Source: Asticcacaulis tiandongensis
GTDB lineage: Bacteria; Pseudomonadota; Alphaproteobacteria; Caulobacterales; Caulobacteraceae
Reading direction: 5' to 3'
Assembly (NCBI RefSeq): GCF_006475605.1
Contig: NZ_SSBC01000010.1
Coordinates: 1,302,001-1,366,000, forward strand
Length of the DNA stretch: 64,000 nt
Part shown: piece by piece, positions 48,936 to 62,880 of the stretch
Layout of the letters: each line of letters opens with the position of its first letter
Position numbering within the stretch: the first letter of the stretch is position 1
Position numbers and translations under genes: made by a program
The notes under the pieces: generated by a model
What the model was told of the DNA's origin: nothing
The model's database searches: none
The model's input: the letters and a program-made list of their open reading frames with translations, nothing else

Positions 48936-48956
48936 CTTCATTTTCCTTGTCTCTTC

Positions 48957-49020
48957 ATACCTCCCCAACTTGCTGGGGAGGGGGACCGCCGCGATTTACG
49001 CGGGGGTGGTGGGGTATCTT
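48957..49020 (+). repeat. Palindromic repeat, family A
   Basis: CATACCTCCCCA-ACTTGC-TGGGGAGGGGGACCGC, then CGCGATTTACGCG and GGTGGTGGGGTATCTT. A typical full copy, in the gap between capsid and connector genes. Confidence 0.88.
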
Positions 49021-49022
49021 TC

Positions 49023-49056
49023 ACCTTCTCCCCTGCACACAGAGGAGAAGGGTCAG
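49023..49056 (+). repeat. Degenerate palindromic repeat, family B-like
   Basis: CCTTCTCCCCT-GCACACAG-AGGAGAAGGGTCAG: same arm logic as family B (CTTCTCC/GGAGAAG) but with a changed loop and no GTGAGGGGCC tail. Confidence 0.6.
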
Positions 49057-49066
49057 AACGCGATTT

Positions 49067-50272
49067 TTAACTGGCCGCGAACTTCAGCACCTTGATGGCA
49101 TCAAAATTCTGCACCCCGCCGCCGACACGCTTGGTCGTATAGAACAGCACATAGGGCTTGGCCGAATACGGGTCGCGCAGCACACTCAGGCCCGCCCGAT
49201 CGACAATCAGATAGCCCTTGGCAAAGTCACCAAACGCCACCGACAAAGACCCTGCCGCCACATCCGGCATGTCCTCAAGCTCCTGCACCGGATAGCCCAG
49301 CACCTGTGGCAAGGCTCCGGCCTGAGACGCCGGCGACCAGATATAGTTGCCATCGGCATCCTTGAACTTGCGAATAATCGCCGCCGTCTTGCGATTGAGC
49401 ACAAAATGCGCGTTTGGACGATACTGGGCCTTAAGCGCATAGATCAGGTCAATCAGAATATCGACCGGATTGCTGGATGGAAACGCCGCTGACGTACCGG
49501 TAGCCACATGACCGATCTGCCCCCAGACAGGTGCCGCCGCCGTCGTATAGCTTAAGAAACCCCTGGGCTTATTGGTGCCATTACCATTAACAAAGGCCGC
49601 GGTTTCCTGCGCCGCAAAGCTGTCTTCGATCTCCGACGCCAGCCACTCATCAAGATTGATGAAACTGTCATCCAGAAGCGCCTGCGTCGCCGCCGGTGAG
49701 GCATAAAGATCAGCCGCCGGAAACTCCAGCAAAGCCAAAGTCGCCGGATCAGTTTCCGGACGCGCCGCAGTTTCCGCCACCCAACCGGCCACGACACCGG
49801 CGGTCGACACAGGCTTACGGAACACGCCCGCCCCTACGGTGCGCACAGTTGCCAGTGAACGCATGGGCGATACCTGCGCCAGACGACGCTCGACAAACCG
49901 CTCGGTCTCAAACGGGGCCAAAGCCCCCGAACCCGACGCGCTCGACAGACCGGCCTTAAGCTCCATCGTCACTCGACCGGAACGCAGATAACCGTCCCAG
50001 GCGGCCTTAGATTCTTCCGGCATAGCCTTAACCGGCGCGCCAATATCAGGGCGCGACTTCTGGCTCAGAATACGATCAAGCCGTGCCTGCGCCGACTGAA
50101 GCCCGTCCTCGATACGCGCGACCTTGTCATCCAGCAGACCATCGCCCTGCTTTTTCTCCAGCGCACTCAATCGCTGATCATTGGCATCCTTGAACGCCTC
50201 AAACGCTCCCAGAACCTCATGCAGGGCCGCCTTCACCTCGGTGGACGCCACCGCGTGTTTCACTTCTTTCAT
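49067..50272 (-). CDS. GTA major capsid protein, HK97 fold (orfg5-like)
   Basis: 401 residues. An N-terminal coiled delta domain (about 1-110: ALHEVLGAFEAFKDANDQRL, KVARIEDGLQSAQARLDRIL) is followed by the HK97 coat fold (LAPFETERFVERRLAQVSPM, RSLATVRTVGAGVFRKPVST, NGNGTNKPRGFLSYTTAAAP, HFVLNRKTAAIIRKFKDADG, VAFGDFAKGYLIVDRAGLSV). The delta domain is removed by the protease encoded upstream during head maturation. Palindromic repeats lie on both sides of the gene. Confidence 0.95.
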   Translation of the reverse strand: MKEVKHAVASTEVKAALHEVLGAFEAFKDANDQRLSALEKKQGDGLLDDKVARIEDGLQSAQARLDRILSQKSRPDIGAPVKAMPEESKAAWDGYLRSGRVTMELKAGLSSASGSGALAPFETERFVERRLAQVSPMRSLATVRTVGAGVFRKPVSTAGVVAGWVAETAARPETDPATLALLEFPAADLYASPAATQALLDDSFINLDEWLASEIEDSFAAQETAAFVNGNGTNKPRGFLSYTTAAAPVWGQIGHVATGTSAAFPSSNPVDILIDLIYALKAQYRPNAHFVLNRKTAAIIRKFKDADGNYIWSPASQAGALPQVLGYPVQELEDMPDVAAGSLSVAFGDFAKGYLIVDRAGLSVLRDPYSAKPYVLFYTTKRVGGGVQNFDAIKVLKFAAS

Positions 50273-50289
50273 CCATTTTCTCCTGAAAT

Positions 50290-50332
50290 TCCCTCTCCCC
50301 TCAGGGGAGAGGGTTAGGGTGAGGGGCCTCCC
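50290..50332 (+). repeat. Palindromic repeat, family B
   Basis: CCCTCTCCCC-TCA-GGGGAGAGGG then TTAGGGTGAGGGGCCTC. Paired with a family A copy in the same gap. Confidence 0.88.
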
Positions 50333-50349
50333 CCCACACCGCTATTCTT

Positions 50350-50415
50350 CATACCTCCCCAACCTGTTGGGGAGGGGGACCGCAAAGGCTTGCCTTTGTG
50401 GTGGTGGGGTATCTT
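50350..50415 (+). repeat. Palindromic repeat, family A
   Basis: CATACCTCCCCAAC-CTGT-TGGGGAGGGGGACCGC, inner AAAGG-CTTG-CCTTT dyad and GGTGGTGGGGTATCTT. Lies between protease and capsid genes. Confidence 0.88.
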
Positions 50416-50417
50416 CC

Positions 50418-50849
50418 CTACGCCGCCGCCCGCGCCGCTTCAGCTATCCGAAACCGCGCCGTTGGCAACATGGGAAAGGTCACCAGCGACACCTCCCAAA
50501 GCGCCACGCCCGCCAGCACCCTGAGCCTGCCTGTTTCATCAAACCGGCTCTTTTCCGTGCGAAAACCAATCGACAAACCGTCAATCACCCCCGCCCGTAT
50601 CAACGCACAGACCATCCGCGCTTCCGGCGTGACCTCAAACACCCGCCCGCGCACAAATAATCCGTCCGCATCTTCATAAACCTCATCCCAGATCCCGACC
50701 GGCGCTTCGGCCTTGTGCTGATAAAGCATCCGCACTCCCTCTGGCCCCGTCCGCGTCAGGCTGTCACGAAACGCCCCCGGCACCACGACATCGTCATTGA
50801 GATCACGCTGATAAAACCGCGACGCATAACCCTCGATCACCACCGTCAT
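50418..50849 (-). CDS. GTA prohead protease (orfg4-like)
   Basis: 143 residues of the HK97-type prohead protease family: IEGYASRFYQRDLNDDVVVP near the start, VRMLYQHKAEAPVGIWDEVY with the catalytic-type His, and ALIRAGVIDGLSIGFRTEKS with the serine-containing DGLSIGF motif. Cuts the capsid protein during assembly. Overlaps the orfg3.5-like gene by 4 bases. Confidence 0.93.
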   Translation of the reverse strand: MTVVIEGYASRFYQRDLNDDVVVPGAFRDSLTRTGPEGVRMLYQHKAEAPVGIWDEVYEDADGLFVRGRVFEVTPEARMVCALIRAGVIDGLSIGFRTEKSRFDETGRLRVLAGVALWEVSLVTFPMLPTARFRIAEAARAAA

Positions 50850-51073
50850 GTGCGCCGCTCCTCATCCAGCTTATGCTCAATCCGCCCCAGCGCTGCCCGC
50901 GTGGCAATGGCCTGTTCCTCAAGCCGCGCCAGACGTTCCGCCACACCGGCCTGCTGCTCCAGACGCCGCTCAACCCCCTCTAATCGCGCACCCGCCCGAC
51001 CGGTCCACATCAGCGCCGCAGCGGTCTGCAGGATGATGGCCGTCACGACCCCGCCACTAAACCACTCACCCAT
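50846..51073 (-). CDS. GTA orfg3.5-like small membrane/coiled protein
   Basis: 75 residues from MGEWFSGGVVTAIILQTAAA (ATG 51073, overlapping the portal stop by 8 bases); nine in-frame codons above it are inside the portal gene. One hydrophobic segment is followed by a coiled-coil-like stretch (LEGVERRLEQQAGVAERLAR, LEEQAIATRAALGRIEHKLD). Small proteins of this form sit between portal and protease in GTA clusters; their role is unclear. Confidence 0.82.
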   Translation of the reverse strand: MGEWFSGGVVTAIILQTAAALMWTGRAGARLEGVERRLEQQAGVAERLARLEEQAIATRAALGRIEHKLDEERRT

Positions 51074-52235
51074 GCGCCCCTCCGCAATCCGCGACCTCAC
51101 TTAAGCCCGCCAGACGCCGCTTCTCGGCCACCTCAAGAAAACTCGCCCCCTCAAGCCGCGCCCACAGCGCTTCCCGTTCCGCCGACAGGGCCGGTAAGGT
51201 CTCGACATCGGCAATGATCCGCGCGCCCTGAAACCTTGGCTCCAGCCAGTTCGACAAGGACCGCGTCGTCTTCTCGACCAGAGGCAAAACCGTGTGCCGC
51301 CAGAAGGCCGCATTGGCCTCACGATAATTGCTGTAGGCATTATCGCCCGGTATCCCCAGAAGCTGCGCCGGCACCCCGAAGGCCAGCGCAATATCCCGCG
51401 CCGCCGCGTGCTTGCCCTCGATGAAATCCATATCGGCGGGCGAAAGTGACATGGGCTTCCAGTCAAGCCCGCCCTCAAGCAATAATGGCCGTCCGGCATT
51501 ATCCGCCCCCGCATGGGCCTCGCTAAGTTCCGCCTTCAACCGGCTGAACTGCTCCTCAGACAACCGCTCCGATGCCTTCGCCCCATAGACCAAAGCCCCC
51601 GAAGGCCGCGCCGCATTATCAAGCAAGGCTTTATTCCAGGCCCCTGACGCATTATGCACATCGATGGAAAAGGCCGCCGCCTCCAGCGGTGAAAACCCGT
51701 ACCAGTCATCGAGCGGATGCCACAGCTTGAGATGCAGCGCCTTCAACCAGCCCTGAGGGTCGCGCCCGATATGCGCCGTATGCGCGCCGACCTTGTATTC
51801 ATAGGCTTCCGGCCAGCCCTTGGCATTGGGCAGCACCCTGACCCGATCAGCCCGCAGCACCCATAATTCCAACGGGCCATCATCCCCGCCTGCCGCCTCG
51901 ACATAGGCATTACCCGCCGTCTGCAAGGACGCATAAAGCGCCTCCCTGAGATCAGCCCCGCCCTGCTCGGCATTGGGCCGCTCCAAAAGCTTTGCCATAG
52001 GGTGCGCGCTTTCATGACGCCCGTCACAATCAACCCGTAACGGCACCGAAGCCGCCGCCTCGGCAATCATGCGCACACAGCGATAGGCAATGGCATTTTT
52101 GGCAAAACCCTCACGCGCCAGATGCTGGTAATCGCGCGGTGTCCACTGCGCCCGCCCCTGCCCGGTCAAGGCCACCAGAGCGCGCCCCTGCGATTGCTTC
52201 TGCTCCCGCCACTTCTTAAACACATCAACCATCAT
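51066..52235 (-). CDS. GTA portal protein (orfg3-like)
   Basis: 389 residues of the HK97-type portal family: ARQPMW-like NAIAYRCVRMIAEAAASVPL, RPNAEQGGADLREALYASLQ, DWYGFSPLEAAAFSIDVHNA, FGVPAQLLGIPGDNAYSNYR and LPALSAEREALWARLEGASF. Forms the DNA gateway of the capsid. Starts with a double ATG. A family A and a family C repeat fill the 185-bp gap to the large terminase. Confidence 0.95.
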   Translation of the reverse strand: MMVDVFKKWREQKQSQGRALVALTGQGRAQWTPRDYQHLAREGFAKNAIAYRCVRMIAEAAASVPLRVDCDGRHESAHPMAKLLERPNAEQGGADLREALYASLQTAGNAYVEAAGGDDGPLELWVLRADRVRVLPNAKGWPEAYEYKVGAHTAHIGRDPQGWLKALHLKLWHPLDDWYGFSPLEAAAFSIDVHNASGAWNKALLDNAARPSGALVYGAKASERLSEEQFSRLKAELSEAHAGADNAGRPLLLEGGLDWKPMSLSPADMDFIEGKHAAARDIALAFGVPAQLLGIPGDNAYSNYREANAAFWRHTVLPLVEKTTRSLSNWLEPRFQGARIIADVETLPALSAEREALWARLEGASFLEVAEKRRLAGLSEVADCGGAHG

Positions 52236-52246
52236 TCTTCCCTTTC

Positions 52247-52313
52247 ATACCTCCCCATCTGTGATGGGGAGGGGGACCACAAAGGCCCGCCTTTGTGGTG
52301 GTGGGGTCTCTTC
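52247..52313 (+). repeat. Palindromic repeat, family A
   Basis: CATACCTCCCCATC-TGT-GATGGGGAGGGGGACCAC, inner AAAGGC-CC-GCCTTT dyad and GGTGGTGGGGTCTCTT. Lies between large terminase and portal genes. Confidence 0.88.
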
Positions 52314-52353
52314 CTCTTCCCCCTTCGAGGCATAAGATCGCGGGGCCTGCCTT

Positions 52354-52411
52354 TCATCCTCCCCTGCCTGCGGGGGAGGTGTCGCGGCGAAGTCCGCGAC
52401 GGAGGGGGCAA
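52354..52411 (+). repeat. Palindromic repeat, family C
   Basis: ATCCTCCCCTG-CCTG-CGGGGGAGGTG, then TCGCGG-CGAAGT-CCGCGA and CGGAGGGGGCAAAA. Two adjoining hairpins; the same plan as the copies at 56678 and 62798. Confidence 0.87.
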
Positions 52412-52420
52412 AACCCTGCC

Positions 52421-53755
52421 CTACAACCGGCTCAACCTCGGCTCACTGCGCCCCGTAATCATTAGTGCCGTCACCGCCCACACCAGCGCATCCGCCCGAT
52501 CCGGCGACTTGCCGCCTTCCGTTCCCAGCGCCATCAACTCCTCCTCCAGCGCCACAAACCGCCCCTCAAGCGGCGCATGAACCACGCGCCCCTGCTCATA
52601 CAAAGCCGCCACCGGCTCGGCCCGCGCCCGCTTACCGACCCGTGCGTGCACCAGTTCTACCGGCACGTCACAACCCGCCATGACCAGCAGCGAACGGATC
52701 ATCTCCCCGCCCTGATTAGCCTCTGCCACTACGCGCAAAGCCCCGTAATCGGCCACCAGCCCGGCCACCCGCTTGGCCCAGCCCAGCGGCGACAGCCCCG
52801 AAACGCTTGCGTCCTCCAGCACAAAGGCTTGCGTCCCCGCCTTAGCCGCCACCACGATACCGCAGGCATCGCCATGTGACGTCGCAGGCGGATCAACCGC
52901 CACCAGCACCTGATCAAACGCCACCGGCCGCGCGCCATAACGGCGCCCGAGATCAGCCGCCCGCCACAAGGCCTGCGCATCCCCATCGACCACAAGCCCC
53001 TCAAGCTCCTGCGCCGCCAGCCGTGTGCCGCCATAGAGCGCATTGAGGCTCTCGACAAAACTGTCCGACAACCCGGCTGCATTCTCACGGGTCGAAGACC
53101 GCGTCAGCACCACACCCGCCTCCCCCATCAGCACCTTCAGGGCCATCAGAGGTTTGGGCGTTGTCGTCACGCATAATCTCGGAGCACTTCCCAACCGCAG
53201 CCCCATGCGCAACATCGCCAGAGTCTCCGCCGGTGCGCGCCAGGCGCAGAACTCATCCGCCCAGGCATAATGAAACTGCGGCCCGCGCAAACTCTCAGGA
53301 TCTTCCGCCGAAAAAGCATAGGCCACCGCCCCGTTAGGCCAGCGCAACCTGCGCCGTGACACCTCGTAATGCGGCCGGTTGCCGCGTTGCGCCACAGCCC
53401 GTAACCCCGAAGGCCCTTCGATCATCACCTCACGCACATCATGCAGGCTTGCGCCCACCAGCGCGAAGCGCAAACCCTTATCGATCAGCGCCTGCACCCA
53501 CTCGGCACCCGCCCGCGTCTTGCCCGCCCCGCGCCCGCCAAGGAACAACCATGTCCCCCAGTCGCCCTCAGGCGGCATCTGCGCCGGTCTGGCCCAGAAC
53601 CGCCAGTCATTCAGTATCCCCCTGACGATCGCCGGGCTCGTTATCTCGTCCATCCACGCCTGACGCGCTTCGCGCCCCAGCGAGACGATCGAGCTTGCGT
53701 TCCAGCCTGAGTTTCCAGGCTTCAAGCGTGTCGGCTGTGTCCTGTTCGTCGTCAT
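52421..53755 (-). CDS. GTA large terminase (orfg2-like)
   Basis: 444 residues. ATPase domain with Walker A GGRGAGKT (73-80), Walker B region FHYAWADEFCAW, and a C-terminal RNase H-like nuclease with LVAVDPPATSHGD, RVVAEANQGGEMIRSL and DRADALVWAVTALM. This motor packages host DNA in GTA particles. The ATG at 53755 has a GGAG 12 bases upstream and makes a 149-bp overlap with the small terminase gene; a second ATG at 53653 would cut the overlap to 47 bp. Which is used cannot be settled by eye. Confidence 0.94.
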   Translation of the reverse strand: MTTNRTQPTRLKPGNSGWNASSIVSLGREARQAWMDEITSPAIVRGILNDWRFWARPAQMPPEGDWGTWLFLGGRGAGKTRAGAEWVQALIDKGLRFALVGASLHDVREVMIEGPSGLRAVAQRGNRPHYEVSRRRLRWPNGAVAYAFSAEDPESLRGPQFHYAWADEFCAWRAPAETLAMLRMGLRLGSAPRLCVTTTPKPLMALKVLMGEAGVVLTRSSTRENAAGLSDSFVESLNALYGGTRLAAQELEGLVVDGDAQALWRAADLGRRYGARPVAFDQVLVAVDPPATSHGDACGIVVAAKAGTQAFVLEDASVSGLSPLGWAKRVAGLVADYGALRVVAEANQGGEMIRSLLVMAGCDVPVELVHARVGKRARAEPVAALYEQGRVVHAPLEGRFVALEEELMALGTEGGKSPDRADALVWAVTALMITGRSEPRLSRL

Positions 53756-53978
53756 GCATACCCGTCTCTCCGCCTTCGGATTCTTTCGTGTAAACCTCTT
53801 TCAGGGTCCGCCTGACCGCGCTCAGCGCCTTGGCCCGCTTCTCGACCGCCGCAAACTGGGCGGGTGTCAGCATGGCCTCGCAATCCGCCATCAGCCTGCC
53901 AAACAGCGCCATAAGCCGTTGTTCGTGCATCACTTTTCTTTTCGATATTGTTTTGTCGGAAAGTGTCGTGCGTCCCAT
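53607..53978 (-). CDS. GTA small terminase-like protein (orfg1-like)
   Basis: 123 residues from MGRTTLSDKTISKRKVMHEQ; MHEQRLMALF at 53930 is an alternative start. Helical N-terminus (LMALFGRLMADCEAMLTPAQ, FAAVEKRAKALSAVRRTLKE), then an acidic linker and a basic helix (TLEAWKLRLERKLDRLAGAR). Position directly before the large terminase, size and layout match orfg1 of RcGTA (small terminase). Sequence similarity in this family is low, so the call relies on context. Confidence 0.72.
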   Translation of the reverse strand: MGRTTLSDKTISKRKVMHEQRLMALFGRLMADCEAMLTPAQFAAVEKRAKALSAVRRTLKEVYTKESEGGETGMHDDEQDTADTLEAWKLRLERKLDRLAGARSASGVDGRDNEPGDRQGDTE

Positions 53979-54251
53979 GCCCTTAGTTATAAACGGGCTG
54001 GAGAGACGGGGCATAAGACCTCAGGCACTAAATGTAACCTTAAGAATTGCCTTATGTTTTTTTTACATTAAGCGGGTAAACGCCTATCTCACTTTTATGC
54101 TCGCAGGTGCAAAACAACTGTCACAAAGTCAGGTTATGTGAATAGTCAGGCTTCAGTACGGTGCGCCCCCGCATAAAGGCACCCCTATTTTCTATTAGAT
54201 CTTTTTTTGATCATTGAGCGCAGGCCACGGTTAACCCCGTGGCCTTTTCCT
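53979..54251. other. GTA upstream region, no gene seen; likely promoter
   Basis: About 270 bp between the small terminase start and the ycgN-type gene. It is AT-richer than its surroundings and must hold the promoter of the minus-strand GTA operon. I see an eight-T run at about 54055, a GGTGC...GGCACC dyad at 54160-54184 and GATC-TTTTTTT-GATC at 54199-54213, then the plus-strand terminator. No credible ORF. Confidence 0.45.
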
Positions 54252-54252
54252 T
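54223..54252 (+). terminator. Plus-strand intrinsic terminator without an assigned gene
   Basis: GGCCACGG-TTAACC-CCGTGGCC is a perfect 8-bp stem followed by TTTTCCTTT on the plus strand. On the minus strand it directly follows the ycgN-type stop but has no T-run, so its clear direction is plus. Confidence 0.7.
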
Positions 54253-54713
54253 TACAGGTCGCTCTTGTCGGCCAGCAGATCAAACGCCGCATAATCCAGC
54301 GCATCGTCTTCGTATTCCAGCTCGGTTTCCGAAATCGTCTGCCCGCGCACCGATACCCCTGCCTGATGCACCGTTTCACGATCCCCGCTGATCAGATGAT
54401 GCCAGCGTGGCAAATCTTTGCCTTCATAGATGCGGCGATAGGCGCAACTGAGCGGCATCCACTCCAGCGCCTCGATATTATGCGGCGTCAGCTTGATGCA
54501 GTCCGGCACATATTTTTTGCGGTTTGGATAATCACTGCACCGGCACGACTGGTTGTCGAACAGCTTGCAATGCACCCGCGTGGGTATGATCTCGCCCGAG
54601 TCTTCGTCCTCAAGCCTTATCAGACAGCAAAGCCCGCACCCGTCACAGAGGCTTTCCCACTCTGTCACGTTCATCTGCTCTAAGGTCTTGGTCTGCCAAA
54701 AAGGTCTGGTCAT
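54252..54713 (-). CDS. YcgN/UPF0260 family cysteine-cluster protein
   Basis: 153 residues. The cysteine pattern [20 protein letters not shown] (C-x2-C-x2-CC), then [20 protein letters not shown] and [10 protein letters not shown] is that of UPF0260/YcgN in the zinc- or iron-chelating CxxCxxCC family. The middle block [20 protein letters not shown] is also conserved in the family. Function is not established; a metal-binding role is inferred from the cysteines. A family A repeat lies upstream, between it and the divergent ABC-F gene. Confidence 0.9.
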
Positions 54714-54745
54714 GCCTCGCCATACTCCAAAACCCTCACCTTATC

Positions 54746-54806
54746 CATACCTCCCCATTTTAATGGGGAGGGGGACCGCCGTGCGCAGCGCGGGGGGGCT
54801 TACTTT
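54746..54806 (+). repeat. Palindromic repeat, family A
   Basis: CATACCTCCCCATT-TT-AATGGGGAGGGGGACCGCC with the inner GCGC dyad and CGGGGGGGCTTACTT. Right end differs from the consensus GGTGGTGGGGTATC. Lies in the divergent gap before the ABC-F gene. Confidence 0.82.
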
Positions 54807-54866
54807 ACCTCCCCTACCTCACACACCCTATTCACAAAACCGGCCCCAGCCTGTACAGGCAAGCCC

Positions 54867-56675
54867 ATGAACACCAAGGCCCCCCTGCTCGCACTCAAAG
54901 ACGTCCGCCTGATGGACGGCATGAACCCCCTGTTTGACGGCGTGGACATCGCGCTTGAACCCGGCGTTCGCGCCTGTCTGGTCGGTAAGAACGGCGCGGG
55001 CAAATCGACCCTGATGCGCCTGATGGCAGGCCTGATCGAGGCCGATTCCGGCGAACGCACCCTCATGCAGGGCCTACGCTACGCCTATGTGCTTCAGGAA
55101 CCGCAACCCGACGGGGACACCGTACTCGACTGGGCGATCTCGGATGGTGCCGAATCCTATCTGGCCGAGGCCGAGCTTTTTGAATTTGGCCTTGATCCGC
55201 AAACCTCCGCCGCCTCGCTTTCGGGCGGTGAAAAGCGCCGCGCCGCGCTTGCCAAGGCTTTTGCCGAAGAACCCGACCTTATCTTCCTCGATGAGCCGAC
55301 CAACCACCTTGATATCTTCGCCATCGAAGCCCTGGAAGAACGCCTGAAATCTTTCCGGGGCGCAGCCCTGATCGTCAGCCACGACCGCACCTTCCTTGAA
55401 CGCGTCACCCAGCGCTGCTACTGGCTTTATGACCGTAAGATCATGCGCCTTGACGCCGGTTACGCGACGTTCGAAGGCTGGTCAGAAAAAATCGTCGAAG
55501 AACAGGCCGAATCCCTGCGCCGCCTCGAAAAGGCCATCGAGCGCGAAACCAAAACCTTCTACAGTTCCATTACTGCGCGGCGCACCCGCAACGAAGGCCG
55601 CGCCGCCCGCCTTCAGGCCATGCGCGCCGACGCCGCCGAACGCGTAAAAAACCTCGGCAAGACCATGGAAATGAGCATCGATTCCGGTGGCACCTCCGGT
55701 AAGCTTGTGGCCGAGCTCAAAGGCGTCTCCAAAGGCTTCGGCGACAAGACCCTGCTCAACAACTTTTCGACCCGCATCATGCGCGGCGACCGTCTGGCCA
55801 TTGTCGGCCCGAACGGGGCGGGCAAATCGACGCTGGTCAAGCTGCTGATCGGTCAGATTAACGCCGATTCCGGTGAAATCAAACTCGGCACCAATCTGGA
55901 AACCGCCTATCTCGATCAGGGCCGCGACACCCTCAAAGGTGAGGAAACCCTGTGGGACGCGCTGGCCAATTCCGGCTCGGATCAGATCATGGTGCAGGGC
56001 CAGCCGAAGCACGTCGCTGGCTACGCCAAAGAATTCCTGTTCCGTGAAAACCAGTTGCGCCAGCCGGTCAAATCCCTGTCCGGCGGGGAACGTAACCGCC
56101 TGCAACTGGCCCGCGCCCTGGCCAAATCGACCAATCTTCTGGTGCTGGATGAGCCGACCAACGACCTCGACATGGATACGCTCGACCTGCTTGAAGACAT
56201 GCTGGCCGACTATGACGGCACCTTGATCCTCGTCAGCCACGACCGTGACTTTATTGACCGTCTCGCCACCTCGACCCTCGCCCTGAACGGCAAGGGCAAG
56301 ACCGTCGAAACGCCTGGCGGCTGGCAGGATTTCCTGCGTCAGAATCCGGAATTTTTCACCGAACTCAGCCACCGCACCCCGACGGTTTCAAAACCCGCCG
56401 CAAAGGCTCCGGCACCTAAACCGGCCCCTAAGCCCGCCACCAAAAAACTCAGCTACAAAGACCAGAAGCGCCTCGAAGACCTCAACGCCCTGATGCCCAA
56501 ATGGCAGGCGGAAATCAAAAACACCGAAGCGGCCCTCTCCGATCCCGACCTCTATGCCAGATCACCGGCCAAGTTTGACGCCCTGATGAAAACGCTGGAA
56601 AAGTTAAAAACCGACCTCGAAAACGGCGAACTTGAATGGCTCGAACTCGAGGAAAAACGCGAAGCCCTCACCTAA
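54867..56675 (+). CDS. ABC-F family ATPase (Uup-like)
   Basis: 602 residues, two ABC domains and no membrane part. First Walker A GKNGAGKST (about 52-60), signature SLSGGEKRRAALAKAFAEEP and Walker B LIFLDEPTNHLDI; second Walker A GPNGAGKST (about 317-325), signature SLSGGERNRLQLARALAKST and LLVLDEPTNDLDM. Linker between domains is rich in Arg/Glu. The C-terminus after about 520 is a Pro/Ala/Lys linker followed by a coiled coil (KLSYKDQKRLEDLNALMPKW), as in Uup. ABC-F proteins act at the ribosome; the precise branch is uncertain. Confidence 0.93.
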   Translation: MNTKAPLLALKDVRLMDGMNPLFDGVDIALEPGVRACLVGKNGAGKSTLMRLMAGLIEADSGERTLMQGLRYAYVLQEPQPDGDTVLDWAISDGAESYLAEAELFEFGLDPQTSAASLSGGEKRRAALAKAFAEEPDLIFLDEPTNHLDIFAIEALEERLKSFRGAALIVSHDRTFLERVTQRCYWLYDRKIMRLDAGYATFEGWSEKIVEEQAESLRRLEKAIERETKTFYSSITARRTRNEGRAARLQAMRADAAERVKNLGKTMEMSIDSGGTSGKLVAELKGVSKGFGDKTLLNNFSTRIMRGDRLAIVGPNGAGKSTLVKLLIGQINADSGEIKLGTNLETAYLDQGRDTLKGEETLWDALANSGSDQIMVQGQPKHVAGYAKEFLFRENQLRQPVKSLSGGERNRLQLARALAKSTNLLVLDEPTNDLDMDTLDLLEDMLADYDGTLILVSHDRDFIDRLATSTLALNGKGKTVETPGGWQDFLRQNPEFFTELSHRTPTVSKPAAKAPAPKPAPKPATKKLSYKDQKRLEDLNALMPKWQAEIKNTEAALSDPDLYARSPAKFDALMKTLEKLKTDLENGELEWLELEEKREALT

Positions 56676-56677
56676 TC

Positions 56678-56734
56678 ATCCTCCCCTGCGAAGCGGGGGA
56701 GGTGTCAGCGCGAAGTCGCTGACGGAGGGGGCAT
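56678..56734 (+). repeat. Palindromic repeat, family C
   Basis: ATCCTCCCCTGC-GAA-GCGGGGGAGGTG, then TCAGCG-CGAAGT-CGCTGA and CGGAGGGGGCA. Starts three bases after the ABC-F stop. Confidence 0.88.
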
Positions 56735-56797
56735 TCTACAACGTAGGGGATATTTCATATCTTTTCCTTACGCGCTCAACATGCCATAGCGAACCTC

Positions 56798-57391
56798 ATG
56801 GCCCGTTACCCGCTCAAAGACGAAGACAAACGCCTGTGGTCGCTGGTAGCGGCGACTGTGCGACCGCATACGGCCAAAACGAAACTCAAGACAACAACCA
56901 CCCCGACTCCGGAACCGGAAACCGTAACCCTGAAGGGCCTGCCTGCCGGTAAAAACACCATGACGGCCCCAAAGCTGCCCCCTCTGCCCATGGCCCCTTT
57001 TCGGGTGGGTGAGGCCGTCAAACCCCAGACGGGCTATAAGCTTTATAGCGACAGTCCCAAATCCGATCCCTATCCCATTGAGCCGAAACGCAAGCGCCGC
57101 CTGAGCCGCGAACGCGACCCCATCGAAGCCCGCCTCGACCTGCACGGCCTGACGCAGATTCAGGCTGAATCGCGCCTCAAAGCCTTCGTCCATCAGGCCT
57201 ATGCCAACGACTATCGCGCCATTTTGGTCATTACGGGCAAAGGTCTGGCTGAAAACGGCATACTCAAACGCCATGCGCCGGAATGGCTGGCCGATCCGGC
57301 GCTGTCACATATGATTGCCGGTGTCTCGCAGGCTCACGCCCGCCACGGCGGCTCCGGCGCGCTCTACATCGCCCTCAAACGCCGCGTTTAA
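56798..57391 (+). CDS. Smr-domain protein
   Basis: 197 residues. A variable N-terminal half (basic and Pro-rich) leads to a C-terminal Smr domain: IEARLDLHGLTQIQAESRLK with the DLHG motif, ILVITGKGLAENGILKRHAP with TGKG, and HARHGGSGALYIALKR at the end. Stand-alone Smr proteins may nick nucleic acids or act on collided ribosomes; which one applies here is unknown. Lies downstream of the ABC-F gene with a family C repeat in between. Confidence 0.92.
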   Translation: MARYPLKDEDKRLWSLVAATVRPHTAKTKLKTTTTPTPEPETVTLKGLPAGKNTMTAPKLPPLPMAPFRVGEAVKPQTGYKLYSDSPKSDPYPIEPKRKRRLSRERDPIEARLDLHGLTQIQAESRLKAFVHQAYANDYRAILVITGKGLAENGILKRHAPEWLADPALSHMIAGVSQAHARHGGSGALYIALKRRV

Positions 57392-57392
57392 T

Positions 57393-57460
57393 ACATACTC
57401 CCCAGCTTGCTGGGGAGGGGGACCGCGCCGGTTTGACCTACGGGGTGGTGGGGCATCTTG
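57393..57460 (+). repeat. Palindromic repeat, family A
   Basis: CATACTCCCCAGC-TT-GCTGGGGAGGGGGACCGC, inner CGCCGGTTTGACC stretch (poor pairing) and GGGTGGTGGGGCATCTT. Fills the gap between the convergent Smr and sugar-kinase genes. Confidence 0.86.
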
Positions 57461-57461
57461 C

Positions 57462-58466
57462 TTACCCTAACAACCCCCGCGCCTTCGCCAGTTCCCCATA
57501 ATTCACCTGCGGACGCGGGCCATAGTGGCCGATCACTTCCGCCGCCGCCAGCGACCCCAGCCGCCCGCTCTCAACAACCGACAGGCCCTGAGTCAGACCA
57601 TAAAGCACCCCCGCCGCATATTGGTCACCGGCACCGGTGGTATCGACCACCTCTGCCGCGCACACCTCAACCGGCAAAACCTGATCATAGGTCACCGCCA
57701 CAGAGCCTTTATCCGAGCGCGTCACAAACGACAGATCAGCCTTGGTCCCAAGAAACTTCACTGCTTCATCAAAATTATCCGTCTGGAAAAAGGACAGGAC
57801 TTCGCTCTCATTGGCAAAGACCACATCAATGTGCCGCTCGATAAAGGCCAGCAGATCGGTACGCCAGCGATCGACAACAAAGCTGTCCGACAGCGTAATC
57901 GCCGTCTGACGCCCTGCGGCACGGGCAATTTCACAAGCCTTGGCAAAAGCCGCCCGTCCTGACGGCGTATCAAACAGATAGCCCTCCAGATAGGTTACCT
58001 TCGACGCCTCAATAATCGCCGCATCAACGTCCTGAGGCCCGACAAGCGCCGCCGCACCCAGATAGGTCGCCATGGTGCGCTGCCCGTCCGGTGTCACATT
58101 AATCAGGCACCGCGCCGTGGCCGTCGGATCATCATGCAGAAACGGCGTACCGAACGTCACGCCCAGACGCTTGAGGTCGCGTGAAAACACCTCCCCCAAA
58201 GCGTCATGTGCCACCTTGCCAATATAGGCTGCCTTGCCACCAAACGAAGCGACACCGGCAATCGTATTACCTGCCGACCCGCCGGATTCCTGCGTCACAT
58301 CCCCACGCGCCGTCATCTTCTCATAGAGATTCAGCGCCCTGTGCTGATCAATCAGCGTCATCGACCCCGCAGGCAGGTTTTCCGCCGCCAGAAACGCAGG
58401 TTCCGCGGGCGCAATAACATCGACAATGGCATGACCGACGGCAACAACATCATAATCAGAAAACAT
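57462..58466 (-). CDS. PfkB-family sugar kinase, adenosine kinase-like
   Basis: 334 residues of the ribokinase/PfkB family. N-terminal VAVGHAIVDVIAP and GGSAGNTIAGVASFGGKAAY match the substrate-binding half; VVDTTGAGDQYAAGVLYGL near residue 275-293 carries the catalytic Asp and anion hole. The alphaproteobacterial adenosine kinase-like group has this length and the FANESEVLSFFQTDNFDEAV stretch. It probably phosphorylates a nucleoside, but sugar specificity cannot be fixed from sequence. Divergent from the ATP-grasp gene, with about 50 bp between starts. Confidence 0.9.
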   Translation of the reverse strand: MFSDYDVVAVGHAIVDVIAPAEPAFLAAENLPAGSMTLIDQHRALNLYEKMTARGDVTQESGGSAGNTIAGVASFGGKAAYIGKVAHDALGEVFSRDLKRLGVTFGTPFLHDDPTATARCLINVTPDGQRTMATYLGAAALVGPQDVDAAIIEASKVTYLEGYLFDTPSGRAAFAKACEIARAAGRQTAITLSDSFVVDRWRTDLLAFIERHIDVVFANESEVLSFFQTDNFDEAVKFLGTKADLSFVTRSDKGSVAVTYDQVLPVEVCAAEVVDTTGAGDQYAAGVLYGLTQGLSVVESGRLGSLAAAEVIGHYGPRPQVNYGELAKARGLLG

Positions 58467-58516
58467 AGGGATTTATCCGGTTGATTTTATCCCCCTCTGT
58501 TGCGCATAAAGCCAGC

Positions 58517-59428
58517 ATGCGCAAGTCCCTCCTGATCCTGACCCCCGATCCCGACTATAAAACCCACAGCCGCTGGCCCGCCGTCGTCGACGCCTACCGC
58601 GCCGCCCTCTCCGACCTTCCCGTCGATATCTTTACCCAGCCCTGGTCAGCGCCCCTGACGCGTGACTATGATCTGGTGTGTCCGCTGGTGGTCTGGGGCT
58701 ATCACAATGCGCCCGATGACTTCCGTAAAAGCCTCGCCTACATCAAAGCCAAGGGCCACAGACTGATGAACCCCACCGGCATTCTGGCATGGAACATCGA
58801 CAAGCATTATTTGCGTGACCTGTCACAATCCGGCATCCGCACCGTACCTACCCTGTTTGCCGCCAGCCTGACCCCCAGAGTGATCGCCAATGCCCGCGCT
58901 GATTTCAATCAGCAAAAACTGGTCATCAAACCCGTCATATCTGCCGGTTCCAAAAACACTTTTATACTCGACACGGATCATATCCCCCCAATTCATTGGG
59001 GGGAGACCGGCGAAGCCGGAGGGGGGAGTCTTATGCTGCAACCCTTTATGCCCGCCATCCAGTCCGAAGGCGAATGGTCACTTCTGTTCTATAGCGGCCA
59101 GTTCTCCCACGCCGTGCTGAAGACCCCCAAATCCGGTGATTTCCGCTCACAGCCCGATTATGACGCGAACCTGCGCACACTGCCTGTCCCGCCCGAAGCG
59201 CTGGAACTGGCCTACGAAGCGCTTGACTATGCCGGTGGCCCTGACCTGCTCTATGCCCGCGTCGATATGGTCAGAAACGACAGCGGCCAGCCGTGTCTGA
59301 TGGAACTCGAACTGATCGAACCCGACCTCTATCTGACCTACGACCCAGATGCCCCGGCCCGACTGGCCCACGCCTTCAGCCATGTCCTGGGCCTTGGCTG
59401 CACCGGTTCCGGCCATCACCACAACTAA
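58517..59428 (+). CDS. ATP-grasp family protein with in-frame palindromic insert
   Basis: 303 residues from MRKSLLILTPDPDYKTHSRW; a 12-codon extension above is not needed. ATP-grasp features are LVCPLVVWGYHNAPDDFRKS, MNPTGILAWNIDKHYLRDLS, KLVIKPVISAGSKNTFILDT, LMLQPFMPAIQSEGEWSLLF and LYARVDMVRNDSGQPCLMEL, then ELIEPDLYL with the metal-binding acidic residues. This resembles the glutathione-synthetase/RimK-like group; substrate unknown. Odd: residues 156-170 (about PPIHWGETGEAGGGS) are encoded by a two-hairpin palindromic element, in frame and without a stop. The gene is otherwise intact. Confidence 0.85.
   Translation: MRKSLLILTPDPDYKTHSRWPAVVDAYRAALSDLPVDIFTQPWSAPLTRDYDLVCPLVVWGYHNAPDDFRKSLAYIKAKGHRLMNPTGILAWNIDKHYLRDLSQSGIRTVPTLFAASLTPRVIANARADFNQQKLVIKPVISAGSKNTFILDTDHIPPIHWGETGEAGGGSLMLQPFMPAIQSEGEWSLLFYSGQFSHAVLKTPKSGDFRSQPDYDANLRTLPVPPEALELAYEALDYAGGPDLLYARVDMVRNDSGQPCLMELELIEPDLYLTYDPDAPARLAHAFSHVLGLGCTGSGHHHN
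58984..59028 (+). repeat. Palindromic repeat inside a coding sequence
   Basis: CCCCCCAAT-TC-ATTGGGGGG, then ACCGGC-GAA-GCCGG and AGGGGGG. This is the plan of the intergenic families (C-rich arm, G-rich arm, inner ACCGGC dyad, closing G-run), but inside the ATP-grasp gene and read in frame. Confidence 0.8.
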
Positions 59429-59494
59429 CCATACCTCCCCGACTTGTCGGGGAGGGGGACCGCGATCCGCAGGATCGGGGTGGTGGGGTATCTT
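59429..59494 (+). repeat. Palindromic repeat, family A
   Basis: CCATACCTCCCCGAC-TT-GTCGGGGAGGGGGACCGC, inner CGATCC-GCA-GGATCG and GGTGGTGGGGTATCTT. Starts directly after the ATP-grasp stop and precedes the TonB receptor gene. Confidence 0.88.
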
Positions 59495-59535
59495 GCTTTC
59501 CCCGCGCCCCAAAGCAAACCCCGTAAGGAGCCACT

Positions 59536-61512
59536 GTGTCACCATATCTCCTCCCCCTGCTTGCTATTGCTTCACCACAACCGACCACGCCTGAACCCGT
59601 GGAAATCACCGTTACCGGTGAACGCCCGACACCCTCTCCGTCCGAAGCCTTGCGTCAGCGCACCGCCGACGTCGCCGGTGCCACCGCCTTTGTTGACGAA
59701 AGCGCGTGGGCCAACCAGCGCGCCACCACCCTTAAGGACATGGTCGATTTCACCCCCGGTGTTCTGGCCCAACCGAGAAACGGCGCAGAATCCTTACGCC
59801 TATCCATCCGTGGCTCAGGCCTGACCCGAACCTTTCAGGGACGCGGCCTGCTGATTCTTCAGGATGGCGTGCCCGTCAACACCGCCGACGGCAGCTTTGA
59901 GTTCAATACGCTTGATCCGTGGCTCATTCAGCACATGCAAATCCTCAAAGGGGCCAATGCGCTGGAACAGGGTGCGACCCAACTCGGCGGCTCGATCAAC
60001 CTCATCACCCCCACTGGCCGCACGCAACCCTACACCCGCCTGCGCCTTGAGACCGGTTCATTCGGCCACCGCCACGCCCTGATCAGTTCAGGCTTTGCCA
60101 CCCCGACCCATGACGGGTTTATGGCCCTGACCTACCTGTCGCAGGACGGTTTCCGCCACCACAATCAACAAGATTCCCTTCGCCTCGCCGCCAATTTCGG
60201 CTGGCAGGCCTCCGCCCACCTCGAACACCGCCTGTTTGCCTCCCTAAGCCGTGCTGACGCCGAAATCCCCGGCTCCATAAGCCTTGCCGAAATCGCCCGC
60301 GACACCCGCACCGCCAATCCGGCCAATATTACCGGCCGCTTCTATCGCGATGTTGATCTCGGTCGTCTGGCCTATCGCGGAATCTATACGGATGGCCTGT
60401 CGGAATGGTCACTCGCCGCCTACACCAGCCACCGCCGCCTCGACACCCCCGTCACCGTGGCCATCAAAAGCCGCTCCAACGAACACGGCCTGCGCCTGAG
60501 ATACGGTTATGGCCTGCGCCCCAACCGCTTCACCACCGGCCTGAACGCCTATTACGGCAAGGAAAAAGAACGCCGCTTCGTCAATGTCGCTGGCACGCCC
60601 ACCACCCCCATTGTTACCCGCGACCTGACGGCCCTGACCCTTGAGGCCTACGCCCAGTATGAACATCTGATTGCGCCGTTCACCACCGCCATAGCTGGCC
60701 TTCAGGCCACCGCCGTCACCCGCCGCATAGATGAACACTTCCCCTCAACCGAGCGCCGCACGAACCGCTATTCGGCCTTCAGTCCACGCCTCGGCCTGCG
60801 CTATGACGCCCAGACCTATACCCTGTTCACTAATTTCAGCCGCAGCTACGAACCTCCTACTTTGAGCGAGCTATCCGGCGGCAATGGCCCCGGTTTTCGC
60901 TCACTCAACGACCAGAGCGCCACCACGGGCGAAATCGGTGGTCGCGGTCAGTACAAAAACCTGCGCTGGGAGGCCGCCACCTATCTGTCGACCCTAAGCG
61001 GTGAATATATCATCCTGCGTCAGCCTGACGGTTCCTCACAGGCCGTCAATGCCGACCGCACCCATCACGCCGGCCTCGAACTCGGCCTCGGTGGGCAACT
61101 GACCCGCCTCCTGTCGGTCAATACGGCATACACCTACAACCACTTCCGCTTCCGCAACGATCCGGTCTATGGCGACAACCATTTGCCGGGCGTGCCCAGC
61201 CACTATCTGCGCGCCGAACTGAGCTACCATATCGGCCCCGTCACCCTGTCACCCAATGTCGAGTGGTCACCTGTGGCCTATTATATCGACATGAACAACA
61301 GCCTCCAAAGCCCCGCCTATACGGTCTGGAATCTGCGGGCCACATGGTCACCATCGCAAAAACCCATCCGCTTTTATGCCGACCTACGCAACCTGAACGA
61401 CGAAGCCTATGTCGCCACGACCAATGTCATCGCCAATGCCTTTGGCAATGACGGTCGCCACTTCTATCCCGGCGAAGGGCGCGCCCTTTATATCGGGATC
61501 ACTCTGAAATAA
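59536..61512 (+). CDS. TonB-dependent outer-membrane receptor
   Basis: 658 residues from GTG 59536, with AAGGAG 5 bases before it. A short signal-like segment (LLPLLAIAS) is followed by the plug domain (VEITVTGERP as TonB box region, TLKDMVDFTPGVLAQPRNGA, SLRLSIRGSGLTRTFQGRGL, LILQDGVPVNTADGSFEF, LKGANALEQGATQLGGSINL) and a 22-strand type barrel ending GRALYIGITLK. Resembles FecA-like siderophore receptors; the substrate is not readable from sequence. The following exporter gene on the same strand may belong to the same uptake/export function. Confidence 0.93.
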   Translation: MSPYLLPLLAIASPQPTTPEPVEITVTGERPTPSPSEALRQRTADVAGATAFVDESAWANQRATTLKDMVDFTPGVLAQPRNGAESLRLSIRGSGLTRTFQGRGLLILQDGVPVNTADGSFEFNTLDPWLIQHMQILKGANALEQGATQLGGSINLITPTGRTQPYTRLRLETGSFGHRHALISSGFATPTHDGFMALTYLSQDGFRHHNQQDSLRLAANFGWQASAHLEHRLFASLSRADAEIPGSISLAEIARDTRTANPANITGRFYRDVDLGRLAYRGIYTDGLSEWSLAAYTSHRRLDTPVTVAIKSRSNEHGLRLRYGYGLRPNRFTTGLNAYYGKEKERRFVNVAGTPTTPIVTRDLTALTLEAYAQYEHLIAPFTTAIAGLQATAVTRRIDEHFPSTERRTNRYSAFSPRLGLRYDAQTYTLFTNFSRSYEPPTLSELSGGNGPGFRSLNDQSATTGEIGGRGQYKNLRWEAATYLSTLSGEYIILRQPDGSSQAVNADRTHHAGLELGLGGQLTRLLSVNTAYTYNHFRFRNDPVYGDNHLPGVPSHYLRAELSYHIGPVTLSPNVEWSPVAYYIDMNNSLQSPAYTVWNLRATWSPSQKPIRFYADLRNLNDEAYVATTNVIANAFGNDGRHFYPGEGRALYIGITLK

Positions 61513-61579
61513 TCCGTGAAAAAATTTCATTTGAAACTAATTGCCTCCCTTGCCCGAAAGGTCTAAGGCGAAGGCCATT

Positions 61580-62791
61580 ATGTCGACACGCACCATAAAA
61601 GCCCCTTCGTTTCCTGAATTTGTCGGTCTGGCTGCCGCCATCATGGCCATGATGGCGCTGGCTATTGATGCCATTCTGCCTGCCCTGCCGACCATCGGGC
61701 GTGAGTTTCAGATTACCGACCACAATCAGTTGCACGCCATTATCGGGGCCTTTTTCATGGGCGCAGGCGTCGGCCAGCTGGCCTTTGGCCCCTTATCGGA
61801 CTGGCTGGGACGCCGCAATGTGCTTCTGTGGGGCATAGGCGTCTATGTCGTCCTGTCGCTGCTGGCGGCCCTTGTCGACAATATGAGCCTGCTGATCGCC
61901 CTGCGCTTCGCGCAAGGGCTGGTCGCCGCCTGCGCCAGTGTCATTTCCCGCGCCATTGTCCGTGACTATTATTCCGGCGACCGCATGGCAAAGGTCATGT
62001 CGATCGTCCAGATGATCTTCCTCGCCGTGCCTGCGCTGGCGCCCGCTCTGGGGCAGCTGATCCTGCTGATTGCCCCGTGGCGCTTCATCTTCGTCACTCT
62101 GGCCATATATGCCATGTTGCTGCTGGTCTGGGCCCTGTTCCGCCTGCCGGAAACCTTACCCGCCGAAGCCCGCCGCAAGCCCGATATCGGCCATATCCGC
62201 CGCACCAGCATCAGCCTCCTGACCAACCGCGTGTCCCTGACCTATACCCTGGCCAGCACCACCATAGTGGCCATGCTGCTGGTCTATCTGTCTCTGATGC
62301 CTCAGGTGTTTGACGAGGTCTATAACCACCCCGAATGGCTGGCACCGGTCTTTGCCATCTGCGTCGTCGCCATGAGCGTTTGCGCCCTGCTCAATTCGCG
62401 TATCGTCGAAAAAGTCGGTGCCCGCACCGTTTCCCATTATGCCCAGTTAGGCATGCTGGGCTTTGGGGTGCTGCACTTTGCCATTGCCTACAGCTTCAAT
62501 GAACCGCTCTGGCTGTTTGTCACCCTTCAGGCCCTGACGCTCGGCTGCATGAGCCTGTCGACCTCGAATTTCATGTCGATTGCCATGGAAGACTTCGGCC
62601 ATGTCGCCGGCACCGCCGCCTCAGTTCAGGGCTTTATCACCATGATGGGCGGCAGCCTGTTCGGCGGTTTCCTGAGCGGCTTCTGGACCGGCCACCTGTG
62701 GCTGATGCCCTTGTCGGTCGTCATCACTTCCGGACTGGCCATGCTCATCATCTTCGTTGGCGAAAAAGGCCGCCTGTTCCGCAACGCCTGA
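61580..62791 (+). CDS. MFS exporter, Bcr/CflA subfamily
   Basis: 403 residues from ATG 61580 with AAGG 5 bases upstream. About 12 membrane segments; the loop motif GPLSDWLGRRNVLLWGIGVY (motif A) lies between helices 2 and 3, and RFAQGLVAACASVISRAIVR plus DYYSGDRMAKVMSIVQMIFL with APALGQLILL is the Bcr/CflA drug-exporter signature. Probable inner-membrane antiporter. Substrate unknown; the adjacent TonB receptor raises the possibility of siderophore-related traffic, which is speculation. Confidence 0.9.
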   Translation: MSTRTIKAPSFPEFVGLAAAIMAMMALAIDAILPALPTIGREFQITDHNQLHAIIGAFFMGAGVGQLAFGPLSDWLGRRNVLLWGIGVYVVLSLLAALVDNMSLLIALRFAQGLVAACASVISRAIVRDYYSGDRMAKVMSIVQMIFLAVPALAPALGQLILLIAPWRFIFVTLAIYAMLLLVWALFRLPETLPAEARRKPDIGHIRRTSISLLTNRVSLTYTLASTTIVAMLLVYLSLMPQVFDEVYNHPEWLAPVFAICVVAMSVCALLNSRIVEKVGARTVSHYAQLGMLGFGVLHFAIAYSFNEPLWLFVTLQALTLGCMSLSTSNFMSIAMEDFGHVAGTAASVQGFITMMGGSLFGGFLSGFWTGHLWLMPLSVVITSGLAMLIIFVGEKGRLFRNA

Positions 62792-62797
62792 CCCCTA

Positions 62798-62853
62798 AAT
62801 CCTCCCCTGTTTACGGGGGAGGTGGCGCGGCAAGGTCCGCGCCGGAGGGGGCA
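62798..62853 (+). repeat. Palindromic repeat, family C
   Basis: ATCCTCCCCTG-TTTA-CGGGGGAGGTG, then GCGCGG-CAAGGT-CCGCGC and CGGAGGGGGCA. Lies between the convergent exporter and dienelactone hydrolase genes. Confidence 0.88.
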
Positions 62854-62880
62854 CTTCCCGAACGATGTCTCTCAATCCCC

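Follow-up and report, generated by a model that had tools for sequence, protein, structure and literature searches.

A dispersed two-hairpin repeat read in frame within a variable loop of an ATP-grasp gene in Asticcacaulis

Palindromic repeats that are translated in frame within coding sequences are best known from Rickettsia and Wolbachia. RPEs, which are about 100-150 bp long, and their Wolbachia counterparts are described, in the available portions of the reports, as palindromic sequences that lie between genes or in frame within conserved protein genes, without disrupting them (PMC2229807, PMC3767692). In the case of RPE-4, RPE-6 and RPE-7, different families occupy about the same site of orthologous genes, and the portion of the report at hand leaves open whether this reflects a hotspot or common ancestry (PMC3767692). 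The GTAG and CGTC REPs are presented, in the accessible sections of one study, as short palindromes that are mainly intergenic and often arranged in facing pairs, although some fall entirely inside open reading frames; recB of two Xanthomonas species carries different REPs at about the same site, and the CGTC REPs, with stems of 8-9 bp, loops of 4-5 and a CGTC tag at one end, are credited there with no dedicated transposase (PMC3733652). Among alphaproteobacterial repeats, the two-armed Caulobacter CIR (about 110 bp) contains a conserved GANTC, the recognition site of CcrM, and is said in the excerpt available to be absent from inside genes and to hold stops in all six frames (PMC2229807). Finally, extracts of further reports describe coding palindromes in Nematomorpha mitochondria, with inverted repeats within the coding sequence (PMC6649704), and template-switch hairpins, whose arms are altered together in one event (PMC8604942, PMC8794818).

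The locus compared here with these systems belongs to Asticcacaulis tiandongensis (genome G000) and lies in a stretch of 64,000 nucleotides, referred to as the window (contig C10, positions 1302001-1366000), whose own coordinates are used below. An ATP-grasp gene in this window carries a repeat copy, CATATCCCCCCAATTCATTGGGGGGAGACCGGCGAAGCCGGAGGGGGGAGTCTT, whose 18 codons are read in the frame of the gene. The features of the gene are the following:

58517..59428, + strand: ATP-grasp gene, 303 aa (open reading frame; NF058666, 125.6 bits; 6jil by profile)
58979..59032, + strand: in-frame repeat copy, 54 nt, residues 155-172, translated as HIPPIHWGETGEAGGGSL, with type-3 arms and type-1 loop and termini
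58983..59004, + strand: hairpin 1, 9 bp, TCCCCCCAA/TTGGGGGGA (RNAfold)
59007..59019, + strand: hairpin 2, 5 bp, loop GAA, CCGGC-GAA-GCCGG (RNAfold)

A first-pass annotation of the window had described 45 bases with two hairpins that keep the frame of this gene, and had taken them for a copy of a dispersed repeat. Both the DNA and the frame are as it described, and the full copy reaches beyond the 45 bases to 58979-59032, because the CATA and TCTT that flank this core are also found at the ends of type-1 copies lying between genes. The segment is an in-frame copy of a dispersed two-hairpin family; it quite probably replaced about 11 resident codons in a flexible ATP-grasp loop and is probably tolerated there. 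The open reading frame is intact and, in a hexamer test, coding-like on both sides of the repeat (0.47 and 0.54), and the protein retains the residues conserved in its family. Its score against NF058666 is far below the cut-off of 360, its sole solved relative in a profile search is 6jil (DcsG), and the protein is, as judged from these matches, a distant relative of the D-cycloserine synthetase DcsG. An AlphaFold2 model based on 18 sequences has a mean pLDDT of 81.3, with values below 50 for residues 163-168, between the strands at 149-151 and 172-176, and the repeat-encoded segment is read from this prediction as a flexible connector.

Three subfamilies of the repeat, named type 1, type 2 and type 3 in this analysis, can be distinguished. 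Type 1 is marked by CATA at its ends, by GGGGGACC and by a tail similar to GGTGGTGGGG; type 2 terminates in CGGAGGGGG; and type 3 has the arms TCCCCCC/GGGGGGA. The ATP-grasp copy shows these last arms instead of CCTCCCC/GGGGAGG, together with a hairpin loop, AATTCATT, that is identical in four intergenic copies of its own genome. A reading of the TCCCCCC arms as a compensatory change private to this one copy was abandoned once the type-3 subfamily had emerged. The pattern CCTCCCC(2-14)GGGGAGG occurs at 64 places in the own genome, where its control pattern has none, while the full type-3 pattern occurs at 37 places in nine of 25 genomes, with no control match in any of the 25 and with the ATP-grasp copy as the sole match in the own genome. 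The profiles comprise 121 type-1, 20 type-2 and 29 type-3 copies; none of the 29 type-3 rows comes from the window or from elsewhere in the own genome. The sets exclude the ATP-grasp copies of G018 and G020 as well as the G020 Smr copy, and the coding copies that remain are one in the type-1 set and two in the type-3 set. Searched against the window, the type-3 profile recovers the ATP-grasp copy at E=3.3e-7 (25.8 bits), and at E=4e-7 once the two coding rows are removed and 27 intergenic rows remain. This match, along with the shared termini and loop, bears out the earlier assignment of the segment to a dispersed repeat; the type-1 profile alone gives a weak match (E=0.094). A 151-bp query finds two more places in the own genome, with 86% identity over about 33 bases (E 7.7e-4). 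A scan of the window with Rfam at the gathering threshold returned no matches, and the element pattern was found in none of 80 genome-contig loci (the central 900 bases, or the entire locus where short), a set in which neither the own species nor G018 or G020 could be recognised. Intergenic copies in the window include the following:

59430..59495, + strand: type-1 copy, the nearest one, directly 3' of the ATP-grasp gene (type-1 profile, E 1.7e-15)
57398..57460, + strand: type-1 copy in the gap that separates the Smr gene from the pfkB-type gene (type-1 profile, E 1.3e-13)
56675..56737, + strand: type-2 copy (type-2 profile, E 1.2e-17)
62796..62857, + strand: type-2 copy (type-2 profile, E 4.4e-17)
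52245..52313, + strand: type-1 copy (type-1 profile, E 9.8e-16)
50349..50416, + strand: type-1 copy (type-1 profile, E 4.5e-17)

From the perspective of translation, any one of the six frames is free of stops in 88-101 of the 121 type-1 copies, and all six are open in 29 of them, compared with 80 among 5000 random 61-mers drawn from the window. Type 3 is almost closed in two of the six frames (open in 1/29 and 3/29 copies), and none of the 170 copies in the three profile sets is closed in all six. GANTC is found in 3/121 type-1, 0/20 type-2 and 9/29 type-3 copies, and GACG in the 3' half in 15/121, 10/20 and 0/29, respectively. The own ATP-grasp copy holds one GANTC site, GAGTC at 59026-59030, a motif that is rare among type-1 copies. 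The abundance of type-1 pattern copies varies about 60-fold across the genus, from two in G010 to 123 in G021, the most among the 25 genomes. Type-3 copies (L306-L333, from several species) usually face a partner with a CCTCCCC/GGGGAGG arm. The resulting pair is about 110-125 nt long, has similar outer ends and is possibly a larger mobile unit; paired units of the genus measure about 110-185 nt and have inverted ends. Additionally, at L161:192-1793 (- strand) of the own genome, one copy lies directly 5' of the point where a lipoprotein-like ABC substrate-binding protein probably begins, and its GGGGAGG arm could, to judge by its letters, serve as a ribosome-binding site.

Compared with the described systems, the repeat resembles RPEs, as had been proposed at the outset, since it lies in frame within protein genes with functional homologues, namely those for the ATP-grasp protein, an amidohydrolase, an Smr-domain protein and a 5-formyltetrahydrofolate cyclo-ligase. 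It differs from RPEs, as far as the available portions of the reports describe them, in the length of the own single copy (54 nt against about 100-150 bp), in its host, a free-living member of the Caulobacterales, and in its fold, which consists of two separate hairpins and not of the long stem that RPEs form from terminal inverted repeats. Like REPs, it is short, palindromic, mostly intergenic, sometimes intragenic and also found in facing pairs, but the own copy is two-hairpin and has neither CGTC nor GACG, which separates it from the CGTC REPs, and the own genome gives no match to a Y1 transposase, which separates it from RAYT-mobilised REPs. No transposase for the repeat was found; Y1/RAYT (PF01797) was the one family tested, with no match in the own genome, so that mobilisation by RAYT is unsupported there, and with matches in four of the 25 genus genomes. 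The two-armed plan in an alphaproteobacterium is shared with the Caulobacter CIR, whereas the intragenic position, the mostly open frames and the lack of a conserved GANTC are not. As regards a comparison with MITEs, the paired units have inverted ends, and the filled and empty gene pairs, compared by eye only, show no target-site duplication and have lost codons instead. The Nematomorpha and template-switch cases differ in that, as far as the available parts of those papers go, they describe no dispersed bacterial repeat family. By analogy, the Asticcacaulis repeat would work like RPEs and intragenic REPs, which are already in print; it is kept apart from RPEs, CIRs and CGTC REPs because defining features of these were tested for and not found, those of RPEs being the length and the long stem. 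A search of open-licence papers, in the portions available, returned no report of such in-frame repeats for Asticcacaulis, and a literature search with the repeat sequence strings returned nothing relevant.

The ATP-grasp gene is present in 24 of the 25 Asticcacaulis genomes, which makes it possible to follow the same loop across the genus. With the SAG motif and the QP strand as its limits, the loop has 31 aa in the own protein, 24 aa in 12 of 23 same-genus orthologues and 33-41 aa in the other 11. Two of these long-loop orthologues, those of G020 and G018, likewise carry repeats in frame at this loop (E 2.9e-5 and 9.4e-7 by profile, respectively, in a search of 30 genes), while nine of the 23 have loops of 33-37 aa with dissimilar sequence and no profile match; extra loop length therefore needs no repeat. 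The variable loop of the first-pass annotation is thus recovered in the spread of lengths (24-41 aa) and in the low pLDDT of residues 163-168. Its insert of about 15 residues stands as in-frame repeat codons but not as a clean addition, as the 18 element codons take the place of about 11 residues of the short-loop orthologues, a net gain of seven. It had also named an observation that would speak against an insertion, repeat-free homologues with an equally long, similar loop: nine of the 23 orthologues agree with this in length, but none in similarity.

In a loop-free tree, the three carriers (G000, G018 and G020) require at least three changes. Their grouping as one clade is rejected (p-AU 4.8e-7), and that of G018 with G020 alone has p 0.026, with G000 on a long branch and weakly placed; rejection of one clade is not by itself exclusion of an ancestral insertion followed by many losses. 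G018 and its sister G021 are 86% identical in the aligned DNA of the gene and differ through the loop, that of G021 being unrelated. Outside the loop, dN is 0.031 and dS 0.537, and purifying selection on the repeat-bearing orthologue is evident from these alignments. The loop motif DVEDRK/DVEDKK is common to G021, G024, G016 and G022 and absent from G018 and G020. Because the sister loop differs and the motif is shared by these four genomes, the G018 state can be concluded to be derived, the repeat there apparently standing for older codons. For the own species we infer the direction of change. Overall, the ATP-grasp loop was probably occupied separately in at least two, and probably three, lineages of the genus.

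In-frame copies also occur in other genes. A search with the own ATP-grasp protein gave, as a second match in G011, an allantoate amidohydrolase (NF006775, 537 bits) with two facing repeats in frame, in a loop between GRYE and KSLI. Among the 25 genomes, nine amidohydrolase orthologues were found at E <= 1e-40, five of them filled and four empty. These and the remaining cases are listed below:

L336 (G011) and L338-L341 (G001, G005, G010, G019): filled amidohydrolase genes, paired insert of about 45 residues
L337 (G017) and L342-L344 (G015, G006, G007): empty amidohydrolase genes
L325:1157-2038, G011, - strand: 5-formyltetrahydrofolate cyclo-ligase, facing repeat pair in frame (Pfam residues 60-284, profile length 186)
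L277:3137-3799, G020, - strand: Smr-domain protein, single in-frame copy in a linker, PPPSGGGGPRSGGGG
56798..57391, + strand, window: own Smr-domain gene, without the copy seen in the G020 orthologue (Pfam Smr, 73 bits)

The empty amidohydrolase of G017 and the filled one of G011 share 92% protein identity, and the distribution of the insert would fit either one gain with losses or two gains. Its second hairpin has the arms TCCCCCC/GGGGGGA in G019 and CCTCCCC/GGGGAGG in G001 and G005, with one arm slightly decayed in G010; between G019 and G001 the element is 88.1% identical and the remaining gene 94.1%. Where both arms of a repeat within a gene have changed jointly, the source can be an exchange with another copy or template switching; the latter is able, according to the extract available, to alter both hairpin arms in a single event (PMC8794818). 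The predicted model of the amidohydrolase is poor (mean pLDDT 51.3). In the Smr-domain protein, the linker repeat has no counterpart in the 12 other orthologues displayed, the own one included. Filled sites have fewer resident codons than the empty sites with which they were compared.

Coding copies are a small minority. They were sought with a hexamer test, trained on long open reading frames, that asks whether both flanks are coding-like; the test is crude and loses copies close to the ends of reading frames. In the own genome, one of 53 copies examined (out of about 65), that in the ATP-grasp gene, lies within a gene, and the expectation that the element would recur in other coding sequences is therefore borne out in other species but not in the own genome. 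The corresponding numbers are 1/78 in G018 (ATP-grasp) and 2/43 in G020 (ATP-grasp, and Smr, which scores a weaker 0.19 on one side but has the Pfam Smr match). When 273 copies were pooled and scanned, the three highest coding scores fell to the three ATP-grasp copies. Two candidates were rejected: in L236, a third candidate of G020, the element lies about where a BrnA-type domain begins (residue 49), and the true start was judged to be downstream, and L206 is a weak candidate with no Pfam match. The weak candidates L288, L317 and L154 were left out of the counts.

The own copies are clustered, with 12 of 32 among the contig C10 copies listed falling within 36 kb round the locus, a width picked after the data had been seen, against a maximum of eight in 5000 random draws, which suggests local spread. 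The cluster spans 48955-62857 of the window and 1350960-1386685 of contig C10. The gene neighbourhood is not generally repeat-rich in other species, where 21 loci hold five copies against 1.08 expected (Poisson P 0.005), four of the five in G021, and in G020 proximity is unremarkable, as 18 of its 38 copies lie no more than 2.2 kb from another one.

The favoured explanation for these observations is that a GC-rich two-hairpin family, mostly intergenic and dispersed through Asticcacaulis, would have placed one copy in the ATP-grasp loop, and that the enzyme would tolerate it owing to the natural length variation of the loop and to the frequent lack of stops in the repeat. Either non-autonomous transposition or template switching during replication, with another copy as the source, would have brought it there; the repeat may be mobile, and the copy would have replaced the loop rather than having been added and then trimmed, with about neutral effect on the enzyme. 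A more specific account, which can be advanced only tentatively, holds that the repeat overwrites flexible loops. A replication fork would switch to a dispersed copy and back, swapping a few resident codons for a hairpin block; a different subfamily might afterwards rewrite this block where it stands, for example in the second hairpin of the amidohydrolase; and the ATP-grasp loop would be a preferred site that is struck repeatedly. At the level of sequence comparison, it seems that protein loops in Asticcacaulis can be rewritten by repeat DNA.

A single insertion in the ancestor of the genus, with the palindrome kept in three lineages and eroded or lost elsewhere, so that the repeat-free long loops would be its decayed remains, is improbable. 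It agrees with the frequency of long loops in the clade of G018 and G020, and the amidohydrolase pair, found at the same site and with a similar spacer in G011 and in G001, G005, G010 and G019 while G017 and G015 are empty, resembles one gain with losses; however, the loops of the other orthologues bear no profile trace, the DVEDRK/DVEDKK motif is missing from the two carriers of that clade, the gene copies belong to different subfamilies and the tree sets three gains against many losses. Still less credit is due to the view that the hairpins are kept for a useful mRNA structure, for example in pausing or message stability, and are not merely tolerated. The three carriers fold well (RNAfold z -1.86, -3.33 and -2.56) and preserve arm pairing despite their subfamily differences, but 21 of 23 same-genus orthologues do without the repeat, and the two of these that were folded show no comparable structure (z +1.07 and +0.11). 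That a GC-rich loop resembles the repeat by chance, or that the gene is spurious or decaying, is hardly credible. Of 30 genes, 11 do have perfect hairpins with 7-bp arms outside the loop, and four repeat-free orthologues (L018, L020, L025 and L031) have a hairpin with arms of that length in the loop region; the fold of the own copy is just modestly unusual, 8 of 200 shuffles being equally good; and the bare arm pattern CCCCCC(2-14)GGGGGGAG has one place in the own genome against two for its control, so that the arms by themselves prove nothing. Against chance stand the intergenic type-3 profile (E=4e-7), the shared termini and loop and the full type-3 pattern with its empty control, and against a spurious gene the intact reading frame, its coding-like flanks and its conserved family residues.

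A free-living genus with 25 genomes and pairs of filled and empty genes offers a test of whether coding repeats arise by insertion or by overwriting and of whether they are maintained. The same pairs offer a test of hotspot against common ancestry where different repeats occupy one site of orthologues, as in RPE-4, RPE-6 and RPE-7, and Asticcacaulis provides natural alleles of enzymes that either have or lack a loop encoded by the repeat.
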